Positions 25,023-31,790 of a stretch of 64,000 bases of DNA are shown one piece after another. A model generated the notes under the pieces. That model had not been told where the DNA came from, did not search any database, and worked only from the letters and a program-made list of their open reading frames with translations. Position numbers and translations under genes: made by a program. This DNA comes from Pyropia yezoensis (Eukaryota; Rhodophyta; Bangiophyceae; Bangiales; Bangiaceae), in contig CM020619.1 in the NCBI GenBank assembly GCA_009829735.1, positions 9,290,375 through 9,354,374 of the forward strand. The letters run 5' to 3'. Within the stretch, counting starts at the first letter, position 1, and the number at the start of each line of letters is the position of its first letter.

Positions 25023-25307
25023 TGTACCATGTCTTAGACCGCCCGTGATGTACCAGAGGCTCGGGTGCCAAGCACTCACCTGCGTTCGGCTTGATTTCAG
25101 ATCTTTTTTGAAACTTGATTGCACGGAGGACCAGCTACTGTATCAAGTTTTTACAAATAATTCAAGACAAACTAAGTACCCACCCAATTTACGAGTAGAA
25201 TCTGCCATTCGAGCTCGATTCCAACGTCCGTGCTGGACGGCGGTCCTCGACCCACCGGAAGACCAGCGGCCCATGTGCTATAGTGCGTCCCGTAAAAAGT
25301 GGACAGG

Positions 25308-27972
25308 AGGTGCAGCAGTGCTGGCCGCCATGGCTGGTGTCGGTGGCCGCACCAACCGGGCCTCCTCCCAGCTGTCTACCGACGGCGTGGCGGTGACGTT
25401 TTTTCTGTCTCGACCCGGCACGGCCGCAGAGGCCGAGGCGCGGGCGGTGGCCTGGGCAAAGAAGCTGGACGGCGGTGGACTTGCACGGGACCGCAGCGGC
25501 AAAGGCTTTGCGTCCCGGGTGGGGGTATTGACGCAGCTCGAGCGGGCTGGCCTGCCATTGGCGCGCGTCCGGTGGCTCCAGATGGTCGGCGGAGACCCGG
25601 GACGGTCTGCCGTACTGTCGGCAGCACCGGGTGAGCGCGTGGCGACGGCAGACCCCCCGCCCGCCCCGTTGTAGACGCGATGCGTGCCGCGTGGTCCCGC
25701 CACGTGGGCTTGGACGCGCTCAACCTGGCGGCCGTGGCGCTCCTGCGAAGGGCGGGCGTCCAAGACGGGGTGGCGGCAGCCGCAACCATGCCCAAGGGCC
25801 ACCCACCCAGGGGGTCTAGGAAGCGGGCGGCGGCGGGCGCCCCGGCTGCAGGGGCGGGGAGAGGGGGGGGCCGCTCCAAGCGACAAGCGCGGCGGTCGTC
25901 ACCCGAGGGGAGCGATGATGATGCGGCGGCGGTGGCCCCGGCGGCGGCGGGTGCGACGACGCCCCCCGAGGCAAAGACCCACCAGACGGCGAGCCCCGGC
26001 GGTGGCCACGGACGTGTGCGGCGTGGGCCGCAGGCGTCCATCCGAGGGGCCCGCCGCACCCAGCTCGCCACTTCGGTGCGGCGTGTGCTGCGTCGCACAC
26101 GCCTGTCCCGGTGGACTGTGCCCCGTCACGAGGCGGAAAAGGTGGCACGGTGGCTGGTGTATCCCACTGCCGCGGCGGGCAACAGCAGCAGCAGCACCAC
26201 CCCAGACGCGCCGCTGCAGGACCGGGTGGACGCGCTGCCCCGGCGCAAGGGGTGTCGTCGACTGGCACCCGTCACCGGCCTTCGCTACGGCCTGAGTGCC
26301 GCCCACTTTCGCGAGGCCAGCGGCGGAAACTTTTTAGCCCGTGCGTGGCAGCAGTGGCGGGCACGCAGCGGTACTGAGGCGTGACCGGTGGCGGCGGCGG
26401 TGGCGGGACCGGTGGTGGCGGCGGGTGACGTAGGCAGCGTCGCTTGACACCTACCACCCGTCGACTTGGCAGAAGCACACGGCACGATGCGTACCGGCGA
26501 CGACGGCAAGCACCTACAGGCAACGCTCGAGTGGGCCGCCCGTCGCGACACGGCCGCGCACGGCCAGCGATTTGGCGCCAAAGCCACGCGACACCTGCGG
26601 GCGGCGCGTGTGCGCAAGGCCATCCAACGCGGCCGCTTTGCTGCCTCGGTGGCGCGGGACCTGACCGGCGGCCTCTTTCGCCAGGTCCGTGGCGGCGGCG
26701 CTGTAGCGTTATGACCACCGCGTGCCCACAGGGAACCCAATCCACCCCAGAGGGACAACGGGTCACCACTAGAAGGAACGGGCCAGGGAACCCCACGCGC
26801 GCTTGCCCACCTCAAGGTCCGAGGTAAAGGTAAAAGGCTTTTGCCCAAGGGGAAGGAGAAACCCAAAGCAACGTTGTTTTACAAGAGGGACCTCGTCGGG
26901 ACCCCGGGCCAAGCCCCTAAGAACCCTCCAAAGAGCTCCCCAGGTGACCTCCCAGGCGCCCTCCCCAGCGGGCCAAGTGCCAGCATGCACCCGGCCTACA
27001 CCGGAGCGCACCGGGGCACCCGCGCCAACAATAATCCCTCGAAAGAAAAGCAAGTGAAAAACCCCCCGCACACAGATGCAATCCGCCCGAAAAACCCAAT
27101 GGGAGAAAAAGGGCTAAAAGCACGAAAATACGCAAGGAAAATCGAGAAGAGACAAATGCATAGAAAACAATCAAATCCAAGGGCACCAAGTCCAGGGGGG
27201 TACAACCGCCTCCCTCGGTCGGTCCACAACCAACGGCCAGCAACGCCCGCCATCCCGTGACGGCCGGCCAACGATCCGCTGACGCCCCAACGTAGGCCAG
27301 CACTCCGCTGTCTCCGGAGGAGGAACGAGGGCCACAAACGCCACAGACGCGGTCGTCGTGGCCATGGGCACCGAGCGCGTGCGCGGGGGGGACGCCTGGC
27401 TCCGCCGCCACCTCCGACGGCTGTGCTGGTTTGTCGACCAGGACGAGTTCAACACGAGCCAGGCGTGCTCCGAGTGTCACGACAAGGTGGTGCTCATCTA
27501 CTCGACGGGCAACTCCCCCCCCAAGATTCCAGGAGAGCTGTATGGGCCGCCGGCCGGCCCTCCGCCGTCGATACGGCGTGTGCGGATGGCGGCCGGTTCG
27601 CGTCGGGGGCGGCCAAAGCGGGCCCTCCCCTCTGCTGCCCACGTCATGCGCCGAGGGCCGGACCCCGACGCCTACCGGGCGGCCGTCCGAGCCACTGCCC
27701 GTGCTGCTGCTGTGGCGCGGCGCGCGGCCGCACTGGCCGCCTGTGCCGTCGAGGGCCGCGCCGTCTTTGCCGACCCGAGGCGGCTGAGCGAGTGGGCGGC
27801 CAATGGTTGCTACACGTGCTCTCTCGCGGCCCCATAAGGCCCCGGTCACCCAGCGCCACACCCACCCGTGATTCGCAATCGGGACGACGTCGCGGCCCGC
27901 AACATGGCGTGGGTGGCCGCTCGTCGTCTAACGGGTACCGACGTGTGGCCTTTCAAGCGCCCGACTGGTATG
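25308..27972 (+). CDS. Fanzor-like (eukaryotic TnpB homologue) RuvC nuclease gene, multi-exon and possibly decayed
   Basis: Signature blocks of the Fanzor/TnpB family appear in order on one strand. LSTDGVAVTFFL holds the family TDG block (Asp at 25381). MVGGDPGRSAVL is RuvC-I (Asp at 25594). A helical part follows (YGLSAAHFREASGG; KHLQATLEWAARRD). Then VVVAMG stands in the RuvC-II position without the usual Glu, and VDQDEFNTSQACSECH carries a Glu at 27445 and the first zinc-ribbon CxxC (27466, 27475). A second CxxC is CYTC (27808, 27817), and RNRDDVAARNMAWVA is RuvC-III (Asp at 27883). Loss of the canonical RuvC-II Glu with an alternative downstream Glu is a published hallmark of Fanzors. Two GT-AG introns (25631-25674; 26371-26472) keep the frame. 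A ~630-bp AC-rich stretch separates the helical part from RuvC-II, and an in-frame TAA (27835) lies between CYTC and RuvC-III. The N-terminus is not identified. Fanzors are RNA-guided DNA nucleases carried by transposons. Confidence 0.68.
25631..25674 (+). other. Predicted 44-nt intron 1 of the Fanzor-like gene
   Basis: GTGAGC donor after CACCGG and TTGTAG acceptor. Removal joins CCG-G to AC-GCG, moving smoothly from the RuvC-I frame into the frame of the next coding segment. The interior is C-rich. Confidence 0.6.
26371..26472 (+). other. Predicted 102-nt intron 2 of the Fanzor-like gene
   Basis: GTACTG donor after CGCAGCG and CTTGGCAG acceptor. It removes the in-frame TGA at 26382 and keeps the frame into EAHGTMRTGDDGKHLQ. 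Confidence 0.5.
26715..27346 (+). other. AC-rich interruption of the Fanzor-like gene
   Basis: About 630 bp with A and C in clear excess on + (for example around 27040-27190), unlike the G/C-rich coding DNA on both sides. All frames meet stops. It could be a long intron (a CACAG acceptor ends at 27346, just before the VVVAMG block) or a small insertion. A similar AC-rich stretch interrupts the Plavaka-like gene at about 36960-37620. Confidence 0.5.
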
Positions 27973-28569
27973 AGGTGGGCCTGGACGACCAAGTGTCCTC
28001 CAAGTGGTGTTCCCGTCCCGCCTGTACGCCGCTCCCGCGCGTCTACGCGGGTCGATGTATGGCCCGTACTGGCTGCAGTGGACACTGTCGGCGACGGTGG
28101 TGGTGTTCGTGGTGGTGGTGGTGGCGGCGGTGGCGGCGGTGGTGGTGGCGGTGGCGGTAGGGGGGTTGTCGACGGCGACGCGCCGGCAGCGTCCTGTACG
28201 ACGCGACGCGGTGCTCCTGGTGGGGAACGGGTGGCGGCGGCCGGCAGTTCCATGGACGGGGTACGTCGGGCGGAGACGGGGGCGACAGACGCGCCCCGTG
28301 GTCTGGTGGACACTGCAAGACGCTAAGACAGCGCACATCTTGCCCGTGACCCTCACCTACCACGGGGTGCGTCAGCCGCCCCATTTTTTTCGCCGACGAG
28401 CCAATCATTGGTAATTGTCGGCCGATCACTAGCAGATTAGACGCCGGCTTTATCCGGGGACCTTTCCCAGGATGAGTCCGATGTTTCCCGGAGGGGTTTA
28501 ACCGGTTGTTCTTCAAAAGCATAGCTTCGAGGGTGAAATGTTTTAAGCACGAGCATAGGGTTGAGCAAT

Positions 28570-28893
28570 ACGCCTGGGGCGTGTACTCGAACACGCCCCA
28601 GGCGTGTTTAAGTCGTGTTTTAGGCGTGTCACGAAGACACGCCCGCCAATAGGAAGGGCGTGTTCGGGGCGTGTTCGGGATGATAGGCGCCAGACTTGGC
28701 GAGAGCTGTCACTCTGGGTCGCCTGAGGCTCTCTCTAATTCGCCGAACCAGCAAAAGTGACATTAAATGGTGGTAGTTTGGCTAAAGAGGGGGGTCACTT
28801 TGGGCGTGTTGGGCGTGGTCGGTGCGAAAAGGCGTGTTGTACCGCGTTGTAGCGTGTCACGCCGACACGCCTGGCAAAAAGGGGCGTGTTGCA
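28570..28893. repeat. Cluster of GCGTGT/ACACGC hairpins
   Basis: I count nine GCGTGT and three ACACGC hexamers in about 325 bp. Three are exact hairpins. One has a 15-bp stem 28570-28584/28591-28605 (core GCCTGGGGCGTGT, 6-base loop). The second is GGCGTGTC-acgaa-GACACGCC at 28623-28643. The third is GCGTGTC-acgcc-GACACGC at 28852-28870. No coding frame. It begins about 600 bp after the RuvC-III block of the Fanzor-like gene. It could be a transposon end or subterminal repeat region, or a structured RNA source; neither is shown. Confidence 0.7.
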
Positions 28894-29829: not shown

Positions 29830-31790
29830 TCAGTCCACCAGCTCGAGCGTCCCCCCGCCCTGCACCACCATCGCAGCGTAGCCATCGCCGTCCCCGTCAG
29901 GCAAGTCCGATGCGGCAGCACCTCCATTGTCATGAACAGTAGCCGCCTCGACAGGAGCGGGTGGGGCCGGACGCGCCGGCGACGCACGCGTGGAAGACGT
30001 CGCGTCAACAAGACGCAGCCGGTTGCGGGCGGCAGCCAGGCGCCAGTACACGCCGTCGAGCCGCACCAACTCCCGGATCCAGGGCTCCCGGTGGCCCTCA
30101 TTGATACCGGCCTGGGAGTTGCCCTGGATGGTCGCTCCCGCGCCCTCGCCTCCGCGGAGCTTGAGGTGTTCACGCACCTTCGTAACCACAAAGGCCATGT
30201 GGGCCAACAGGCACACCATCGTCGGCTCCTCGCTGCCCGGCGTAGGCTCCTCAAAAAGGTCGCTAGCGCCAATGGTCGCTACCATGTTCGCCAGTGCCTT
30301 GAGCAGCGCCTCGTGACAATATGCCTCTGTAATGCAGCGGTCCCCCTCCGCCAAATGGCGAGCTTCCGACGGGGACAGAGTCAGCACTGTGCGCGTATTG
30401 CTCTCCTTAAAAGGCACCTGCTTGCCCATGCCCGTGCTGTCGTTGATTGACGAGATGAACGCCTTCACCGCGGCCTTCCCCGAATTCTCGTAGAAATGCG
30501 AGACCGCGCGTTTGATGTAGCGGTACACGACCACTGTCGAGGGCGCCTTGCTCCCCCGCCGCTTGCGCGCCGGCATGTGCATCAGCAGCTTCTCGTCAGC
30601 CTCTTCCGAGGACACGACCTGGGCCTCCATCACGAGCAAGACGAGCGCGGCGTAGTGCGCCTCCATGGGTTTGTAAACGTCCCAGGCCGACTTGGCGTGA
30701 TTGAAGTCATCCTTGAGCATGGCGAGGAGCTCTGTCTGCAGAATGCGTGCGGCCGCTCAAAATAGAGCCCCAGGAGCATGTACAGCAGCCAGAACTAGAT
30801 GCGTAGGCACGAGCGCGTCGGTCAGAAAGTTGAGCAGGACAACCCGTGTGGCACACGCACAGGCACACAGCGCGCCCCAGACTACCACCTCTGCCGTCCG
30901 CATAATGTGTCTCGAAGCCCCTCGGCAAAAGCAGCTCCCACTTGCCTCGCAACTAAGATAGCCTCACGTTGCCCTCATGCCACAGGCCAACTTACCCGCA
31001 AGTCATCCACCCACGCAAACGAGTCCTCCTCCTCCTCCTCCTGCGGCTGGACAGCTGGTGCTTGAGAGGGGTCGGCGGCGCTCAGACGCTCCATGATCTC
31101 GTCCCCACGCTTGCGCAGGCTCTCCAGCGTCGCCCGGTCAGCGACGTGCGCCGTCAAGCTCTGCTCCAACAGCACCGCCAGACGGTCCACCTTGGACATG
31201 CCGGCAGCAATCTGGCGGGCCATGTCGTCAACCTTCCCGCGCTGCTCCGTCAGCGCGGCTCGAACCGTCGCAAAGCTGCGCTTTACCATGCCCAACACGT
31301 CGCCCACTCCGAGCTCCCCGTCCTCCCCGTCCGTCCCAGGCGCTGAAGCAGCGTTGGCGGGTCCCGCAGGTCCAGACGGAGCAGGAGAGCACGAGCGCGG
31401 GACTGCGGTCGACACGCGAGTCGCCCGACGAGCATTGCGTGGCCGGCGAGCAGACGGAGCCGAGGGCCCGGGGGGGGGCGTGGGAGCACGTCCGGTGGGA
31501 GTATCAGCAGGCCGAGCAGGAACCACAACGGGCACAGGGGATGTGGGCAGCACAGGGCCGTGCGGCCCGTGCCCTGGAGCAACAGGTAGAGCACCTAAGG
31601 GCTGCGCGGACCACGGCTGCGCAGCGTAGGTTCCCTGCGATGTTGGAGCCCACGAGCCGCCGCTGGCGATGGCGGCGCTGCCGCCCGAGAAGAAGGCGGT
31701 CGCCGTCGCCGCCCCGTTCGAGTTAGACGTGAGCAGCGTGCGTCGTGTGTCATCCTGCGAGAACTGGAAGCCCGAGCCCGACGCCGCCAT
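29830..31790 (-). CDS. Two-exon gene of unknown family, coiled-coil protein
   Basis: Exon 1 is 31790-30996 (ATG at 31790) and exon 2 is 30735-29830. Splicing at GTAAGT/CTGCAG joins …AWVDDLR to TELLAMLKDDFNH in phase 0, giving about 566 residues. Residues 1-160 are Pro/Ala/Ser/Arg-rich and probably disordered. Residues ~163-237 form a predicted coiled coil (KRSFATVRAALTEQRGKVDDM, then MSKVDRLAVLLEQSL). A five-Glu run with DSFAW ends exon 1. Exon 2 encodes a compact alpha-helical region (residues ~266-480, for example EARHLAEGDRCITEAYCHEAL) and a Pro/Ala/Gly-rich tail. I recognise no domain. Its layout recalls the host ORF at 1-11647, which may mean a shared lineage-specific family; I do not see alignable identity. 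Confidence 0.72.
30736..30995 (-). other. Intron of the unknown coiled-coil gene
   Basis: 260 bp, donor GTAAGT (complement of ACTTAC at 30990-30995) and acceptor ATTCTGCAG. Phase 0. Both splice sites are close to the general eukaryotic consensus. Confidence 0.8.

Follow-up and report, generated by a model that had tools for sequence, protein, structure and literature searches.

A dead copy of a large mobile element with a probable divergent Fanzor1-type gene and a helicase neighbour in the nori Pyropia yezoensis

Introduction

A locus of the nori Pyropia yezoensis bears on what Fanzors do for the elements that carry them. The locus lies in a stretch of 64,000 nucleotides (GenBank assembly GCA_009829735.1, contig CM020619.1, positions 9,290,375 to 9,354,374 of the forward strand), hereafter the window, in which an original prediction made from the letters alone had described a Fanzor-like RNA-guided nuclease gene, either active with two GT-AG introns or recently decayed. 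We asked what this gene is, in what state it is found and to what kind of element it belongs. With a probability of about 0.7, we take the locus to be a dead, 5'-truncated copy of a large mobile element that terminates in an omega-RNA-like end and carries, on one strand, an intronless gene for a divergent Fanzor1-type protein of 1407 amino acids, preceded by one for a UPF1-like superfamily 1 (SF1) helicase. The observations behind this reading are a family of copies, an open gene, conserved residues, the helicase neighbour, a fixed right end, a strong RNA fold and gene-less ends.

Results

The locus, which occupies positions 25303-28510 of the plus strand of the window, is one copy of a dispersed repeat family. 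The genome search for further copies that the original prediction had proposed was made in the assembly from which the window comes (107.5 Mb). With 40 of 629 first-look candidates scored, it placed the 5' part of this segment at 40 sites at least, including the window, the other 39 listed being 92-96% identical to the window copy in that part. A pattern taken from the right end, with up to three mismatches, occurred 76 times in the genome while its reversed control occurred 0 times. The 3' end is sharp: the copies finish in ...GGGGTTTAACCGATAGTT and are followed by sequence that differs between them, only 2 of 75 flanks being alike.

A single open reading frame (ORF) of 1407 codons, contained in one exon, was found in a long copy (L063, C2:27925974-27930197), the only complete ORF read. 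No stop or frameshift was present in the covered part of the gene in 15 of the 30 loci examined (the window and 29 others). Coverage in these 15 began for the most part near codon 110, and at codon 443 in L003; L011 is without its 3' end, and L006 itself served as the reference. Because these open copies read through in one frame, the gene has no introns. The ratio of nonsynonymous to synonymous polymorphism (pN/pS), calculated from 91 pairs of 14 open copies, was 0.38 for codons 120-440 and 0.56 for codons 443-1320, with values of 0.42 around the TDG block and RuvC-I and of 0.36 for codons 1140-1300.

PMC10711439 gives as the Fanzor hallmark a DPG at RuvC-I and a glutamate six residues ahead of the zinc finger. 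The nori protein, in open-copy numbering, has D710-P711-G712, E1113-x6-C1120xxC1123 and, as RuvC-III aspartate, D1259 (N1257 R1258 D1259), with 403 residues between the RuvC-I aspartate and the RuvC-II glutamate. In the aligned nori loci (30 rows, in which L006 stands twice and L017 is absent), D710 was kept in 29/29, E1113 in 28/29 and D1259 in 28/29. Homologue searches, in which 8000 (7998) candidates sharing the most words were scored, gave three relatives among the best-scored candidates, P0002 (62% identical), P0003 (36-37%) and P0004 (35%). When these were aligned with the L063 protein, D710, E1113, C1120 and C1123 were invariant across the four, and D1259 was kept in the three members that reach it (L063, P0002 and P0003), P0004 diverging before that point. 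The TDG, DPG, displaced glutamate, CxxC (both pairs) and RuvC-III motifs of the original prediction were found in order on the plus strand of the window, and their pattern exceeds chance: when residues 1-1320 of an open copy's protein were shuffled 20,000 times, under spacing limits chosen after the protein had been seen, DPG...ExxxxxxCxxC arose 20 times and the same pattern followed by RD..A..N did not arise once.

The profile search in part gave the outcome that the original prediction had named as refuting it, the lack of a significant hit: PF07282, the TnpB/Cas12f zinc domain, was the sole Pfam family found for the C-terminal pieces of three of the four proteins, at the same profile positions (E 0.002 for L063, 0.041 for P0002 and 0.042 for P0003), yet below threshold. 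It was also the better of two Pfam families for the window ORF, again sub-threshold, and gave 0 matches in a six-frame scan of the genome. HTH_23 was matched weakly by the whole P0002 protein (E 0.023). Among the PDB chains searched, none of a Fanzor or TnpB was matched. The protein is so far from known profiles that its database copy (P0001, 97% identical) is named merely 'hypothetical protein I4F81_002529 [Pyropia yezoensis]'. On its motifs and relatives we file it as a divergent Fanzor1-type protein, which agrees with the Fanzor-type protein in a GC-rich alga that had been predicted. The choice of Fanzor1 over Fanzor2 is our assumption from size and long insertions, as given in published figure legends too, and not from a tree.

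Since all 29 other fetched copies continue upstream past 25303, the window copy is 5'-truncated: its homology begins about 611 codons into the ORF, the first 43% of which is missing, while its 3' end at 28510 falls outside the range first described (25308..27972). The damage to the frame that had suggested introns consists of a 1-nt deletion and two stops (Table 1), in a gene that is single-frame in the open copies. The in-frame TAA that had called for an explanation is a nonsense codon present, among the 30 loci, in the window copy alone. With this frameshift, three stops, about 611 missing codons and a solo long terminal repeat (LTR), the window copy is dead and cannot make the protein; of the two states originally proposed, decay applies to it and intron-bearing activity is refuted. 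In itself the locus is an ordinary dead copy, yet it points to a divergent Fanzor family that has a helicase partner and gene-less end copies.

The AC-rich stretch of 630 bp within the predicted gene is the solo LTR of an LTR retrotransposon, and its interpretation as an intron or a rearrangement was ruled out. Nothing in the 39 other element copies listed matched the stretch near 26705-27347, the insert being seen in the window copy alone. The LTR family (40 of 231 first-look candidates scored) occupies no fewer than 40 places in the assembly, including the window and three partial ones. Several of its copies stand in same-strand pairs 7-9 kb apart, which suggests full elements elsewhere, and perfect 5-bp duplications were present at two of three other copies checked. 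A 6-bp duplication first assigned around the insert was superseded by the 5-bp LTR flanks given in Table 1.

The last 264 nt of the element are predicted to fold strongly (z -6.0, with 0 of 200 shuffles as stable), and the last 84 nt gave z -2.9 in L006. Comparison of 75 right ends over 290 nt showed that 54 match over 273-290 nt (the gene further inward being checked for part of these), while nine match over 255-264 nt and then run into another body. In that second body, an ORF for a reverse transcriptase (RT; RVT_1, 1.5e-7) was found at the two loci read further, in the orientation opposite to that of the shared end. Another nine right ends keep just 33-149 nt; among these stubs, L082 and L073 seem derived from the second, RT-bearing unit, and L050 and L058 have some 30 bp more in common. 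The remaining three (L008, L049 and L059) align over 88-213 nt. L008 and L059 are Fanzor copies in which the alignment breaks off, and L049 has a third kind of upstream sequence in common with L057. The 264-nt terminal segment is an omega-RNA-like candidate in the intact copies. In PMC10432273, Fanzor ghost loci are described as having a body of about 550 nt, inverted repeats and a 75-nt right end like that of Fanzor loci, and by analogy the gene-less ends of 33-149 nt suggest loci of this kind.

Several observations accompany these comparisons. The right ends L075 and L089, on different chromosomes, have identical first 30 flank bases, either through duplication of the segment or because the insertion was into a repeat. 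The second unit, with the 264-nt end and the opposite-strand RT ORF, is represented by L099 (C3:2890500-2896500) and L100 (C3:17951000-17956400), and copies of its body lie, by coordinates and with two right ends extrapolated, about 2-2.5 kb from Fanzor copy right ends at C1:38.09 Mb, C2:16.00 Mb and C1:7.90 Mb.

A second ORF precedes the Fanzor ORF on the same strand in the long copies. It is open over about 1690-1750 codons in L097 and broken in L098, and was matched by AAA_11 (1e-22, 81.6 bits) and AAA_12 (1.7e-34, 119.5 bits), both above the cut-off of 27 bits, its best PDB match being UPF1 (4.4e-21). When the 10 kb upstream of L033 were used as query (20 of 289 candidates scored), 18 of the 20 scored places matched the helicase side, and in the other two the match was confined to the 3 kb farthest left. 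On its 5' side the Fanzor gene is joined by one of two alternative sequences, and the helicase sequence precedes both kinds. Farther left of the helicase, GC-rich tandem units about 330-350 bp apart by coordinates and an ORF on the opposite strand were found. The nori element is large, over 13 kb, its left side having been followed without reaching the left end and with runs of N in L032, L034 and L097. To the left of the tandem repeats, L111-L116 have a divergent ORF, coiled-coil-like by eye, which ends in ...GPEPGRR in the three translated (L111, L113 and L115). L034 (C2:27912801-27922800) and C2:27703860-27710309 share an inverted stretch of 6.45 kb, 0.2 Mb apart and almost identical (reported as 100%), which is either a recent duplication or an assembly effect.

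The right end of the element is fixed while its left ends differ, lying at 25303 in the window copy, about 510 bp further in L031, near the start of the helicase ORF in L098 and 33-149 nt from the right end in the stubs. A fixed 3' end with variable 5' truncation is a trait of the kind known from long interspersed nuclear elements (LINE-like). The stub L055 has a 14-bp target duplication that overlaps both junctions; there was none at the other 15 of the 16 junction pairs inspected, several of whose left junctions do not represent true points of insertion. Of 74 flanks, 40 begin with A (background 0.23, p 6e-9) and 31 have T as their second base (p 6e-4), which could reflect the target preference of a transposase or of an RT. 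No mobilising enzyme of the element was found, and Pfam recognised no RT in the helicase and Fanzor ORFs, the left end of the element being outside the range read. In a genome scan with RVT_1, which scored 150 of 3927 first-look candidates and does not exclude an RT partner, the nearest same-strand match by eye was C2:27265398, which precedes a right end by about 10 kb.

Just past the right end, at 28590-28880 of the window, there is a cluster of short palindromic ggcgtgt/acacgcc repeats, and two adjacent minus-strand ORFs at 29830-30720 (296 aa) and 30975-31790 (271 aa) had no Pfam match at E up to 1. A search of the window against Rfam at gathering thresholds gave 0 matches.

Table 1. Positions of the element copy, its parts and its damage in the window
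Feature	Position	Strand	Remarks
Fanzor ORF remnant, first piece	25303..26701	+	spans codons 612-1080, approximately, of the open copies' 1407-codon ORF; 5' part lost before 25303
TDG block (STDGVAV)	25375-25395	+	T, G and last V invariant in the four-protein alignment; D is N in P0003 and P0004
RuvC-I DPG	25594..25602 (Asp codon 25594-25596)	+	invariant in the four-protein alignment
1-nt deletion (frameshift) relative to open copies	near 25655	+	
Premature stop	26382..26384	+	
Premature stop	26445..26447	+	
Solo LTR of LTR retrotransposon	26702..27345	.	644 bp, TGT...ACA; flanks GGCGC / GACGC
Fanzor ORF remnant, second piece	27348..28326	+	normal ORF end at 28324-28326
Displaced RuvC-II Glu in VDQDEFNTS	codon 27445-27447	+	exactly six residues ahead of the first CxxC
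First CxxC	27466-27477 (Cys codons 27466-27468, 27475-27477)	+	
CYTC, possible second half of zinc ribbon	27808..27819	+	not kept as CxxC in relatives
Premature stop TAA	27835..27837	+	in the window copy alone among 30 loci
RuvC-III Asp of NRDDVAARN	codon 27883-27885	+	
Terminal segment common to other units	28247..28510	+	264 nt; start inferred from segment length in L006
Fixed right end of element	28510..28511	+	flanking DNA from 28511 would be the guide

Discussion

For the open copies of this family we infer guidance by RNA, cleavage and homing, as well as any part that the helicase may play. In these, the last 180-264 nt or so of the transcript would fold into an omega-RNA-like scaffold, and RNA extending beyond the fixed right end (...GATAGTT) would include the adjoining host sequence as a guide. 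The Fanzor ribonucleoprotein would then cut the matching element-free allele, and repair of the cut allele would copy the element back.

Several results weigh against this reading. In the protein, the PF07282 scores (14.5-18.7 bits) were always under the cut-off of 26.3, the C-terminal piece of P0004 had no match to this family, and with whole proteins the E value was 0.38 for L063 with no match for P0002 and P0003. No NCBIfam family matched the nori protein; in the PDB, the whole protein gave only glycine-run matches and the C-terminal piece and the profile gave none. AlphaFold2 on four sequences gave a mean predicted local distance difference test (pLDDT) score of 39 and a predicted template modelling (pTM) score of 0.32, a model unusable for the RuvC fold. 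Of the two zinc-ribbon CxxC pairs predicted, the first is kept in the relatives; the second, about 110 residues on, is CYTC in the nori loci, CVSAA in P0002 and CVEPTC in P0003 and is not kept outside nori. The pN/pS was 0.92 around RuvC-II and 0.75 in the linker. At the right end, the short fold was weak in two of three tails (z -0.65 for 84 nt of the window copy and -1.4 for 88 nt of L062), and diversity among 26 loci was 0.026 in the last 85 nt, compared to 0.029 in coding DNA, 0.041 at third positions and 0.018 in the 3' untranslated region ahead of the last 85 nt. The tail thus varies about like coding DNA and is under no strong extra constraint; it showed little variation and few double changes from which covariation could be read. 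In a by-eye look at a few C1 right ends, no terminal inverted repeats could be paired and inverted repeats such as those of the published ghost loci were not found.

The absence of a profile above cut-off or of a relevant PDB match and the low-confidence fold would also suit an unrelated zinc-binding, gag-like element protein with its motifs there by chance, as would a CCHC knuckle-like motif near the N terminus, present in P0002 too but not in P0003 (Pfam zf-CCHC_6 gave only E 0.91, on another stretch than this motif). We consider this improbable, as the three-part pattern was absent from all shuffles, D710 and E1113 do not vary even in relatives of 35-37% identity, and the sole Pfam family of three of the four members, matched just where these motifs lie, is the TnpB/Cas12f zinc domain. 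That the window holds an active, intron-bearing Fanzor gene, a view prompted by GT-AG pairs that rejoin the frames, is next to inconceivable given the damage described above, the loss of the 5' part and open copies that need no introns.

It is possible, if doubtful, that the shared terminal segment is no guide scaffold but the recognition end of a copying machinery, an RT or a transposase, acting by target-primed reverse transcription or one-ended movement, with the Fanzor-like gene as cargo or helper. The fixed right end with differing left ends, the duplication at L055, the A directly after the end in 40 of 74 flanks and the RT ORF in the unit that has 255-264 nt of the same end all speak for it. 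However, L055 stands alone among the 16 junction pairs, Pfam recognised no RT in either the helicase or the Fanzor ORF, the RT ORF of the second unit and the shared end are on opposite strands, and a shared right end is equally expected of an omega-RNA. A Fanzor-encoding element with an omega-RNA-like end remains our preferred reading. We only tentatively extend it to a giant Fanzor unit with a UPF1-like helicase, the 264-nt RNA end of which may be used in trans by the RT-bearing unit and the gene-less stubs. If this were true, one Fanzor could sustain several different mobile elements in a red-algal genome.

The literature searched contained no paper linking Fanzor with Pyropia or with Porphyra, and none on this nori family. 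The family is young, the copies listed being 92-96% identical to the window copy in their 5' parts, has many open copies, and offers in a cultivated alga many different flanks at one fixed end, gene-less ends and a helicase partner in the long copies. In the helicase, AAA_11, AAA_12 and the best PDB match resemble UPF1/SETX-type SF1 helicases; it differs from them in being part of an element ORF of more than 1680 aa, the first 1100 aa or so of which have no Pfam match.

Compared with Fanzor1 as described in Bao and Jurka 2013 (PMC3627910), Saito et al. 2023 (PMC10432273) and PMC10711439, the nori system is alike in its DPG at RuvC-I, its glutamate six residues before the zinc CxxC, its RuvC-III aspartate, its multi-copy mobile elements and its right-end copies without the gene. 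It differs in its 1407 aa encoded in one exon, its CCHC-like N-terminal motif, the 403 residues from RuvC-I Asp to RuvC-II Glu, a second CxxC that is far off and not kept in relatives, and the lack of any profile score above cut-off. For Spu-1 elements, PMC10432273 reports no transposase within and suggests help in trans via ghost loci.

Among red algae, PMC3627910 describes CMe-1A of Cyanidioschyzon merolae, a Fanzor1 element of unknown class with about 150 copies, without inverted repeats and with one end common with another element. We liken it to the nori element by description and not by sequence; CMe-1A is about 3 kb long and shares its 5' 635 bp, whereas the nori element shares its 3' end. 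By analogy, the nearest published precedent in the literature consulted is MCi-2 of Mucor (PMC3627910), whose Fanzor1 elements combine a 3' region that is constant and includes the Fanzor gene with one of several alternative 5' regions and have no recognised terminal inverted repeat. The duplications of MCi-2 are of 11-12 bp and the single one of nori is of 14 bp, and MCi-2A carries part of a Crypton transposase, while in nori no transposase was found and the place beside the Fanzor gene is taken by a UPF1-like helicase.

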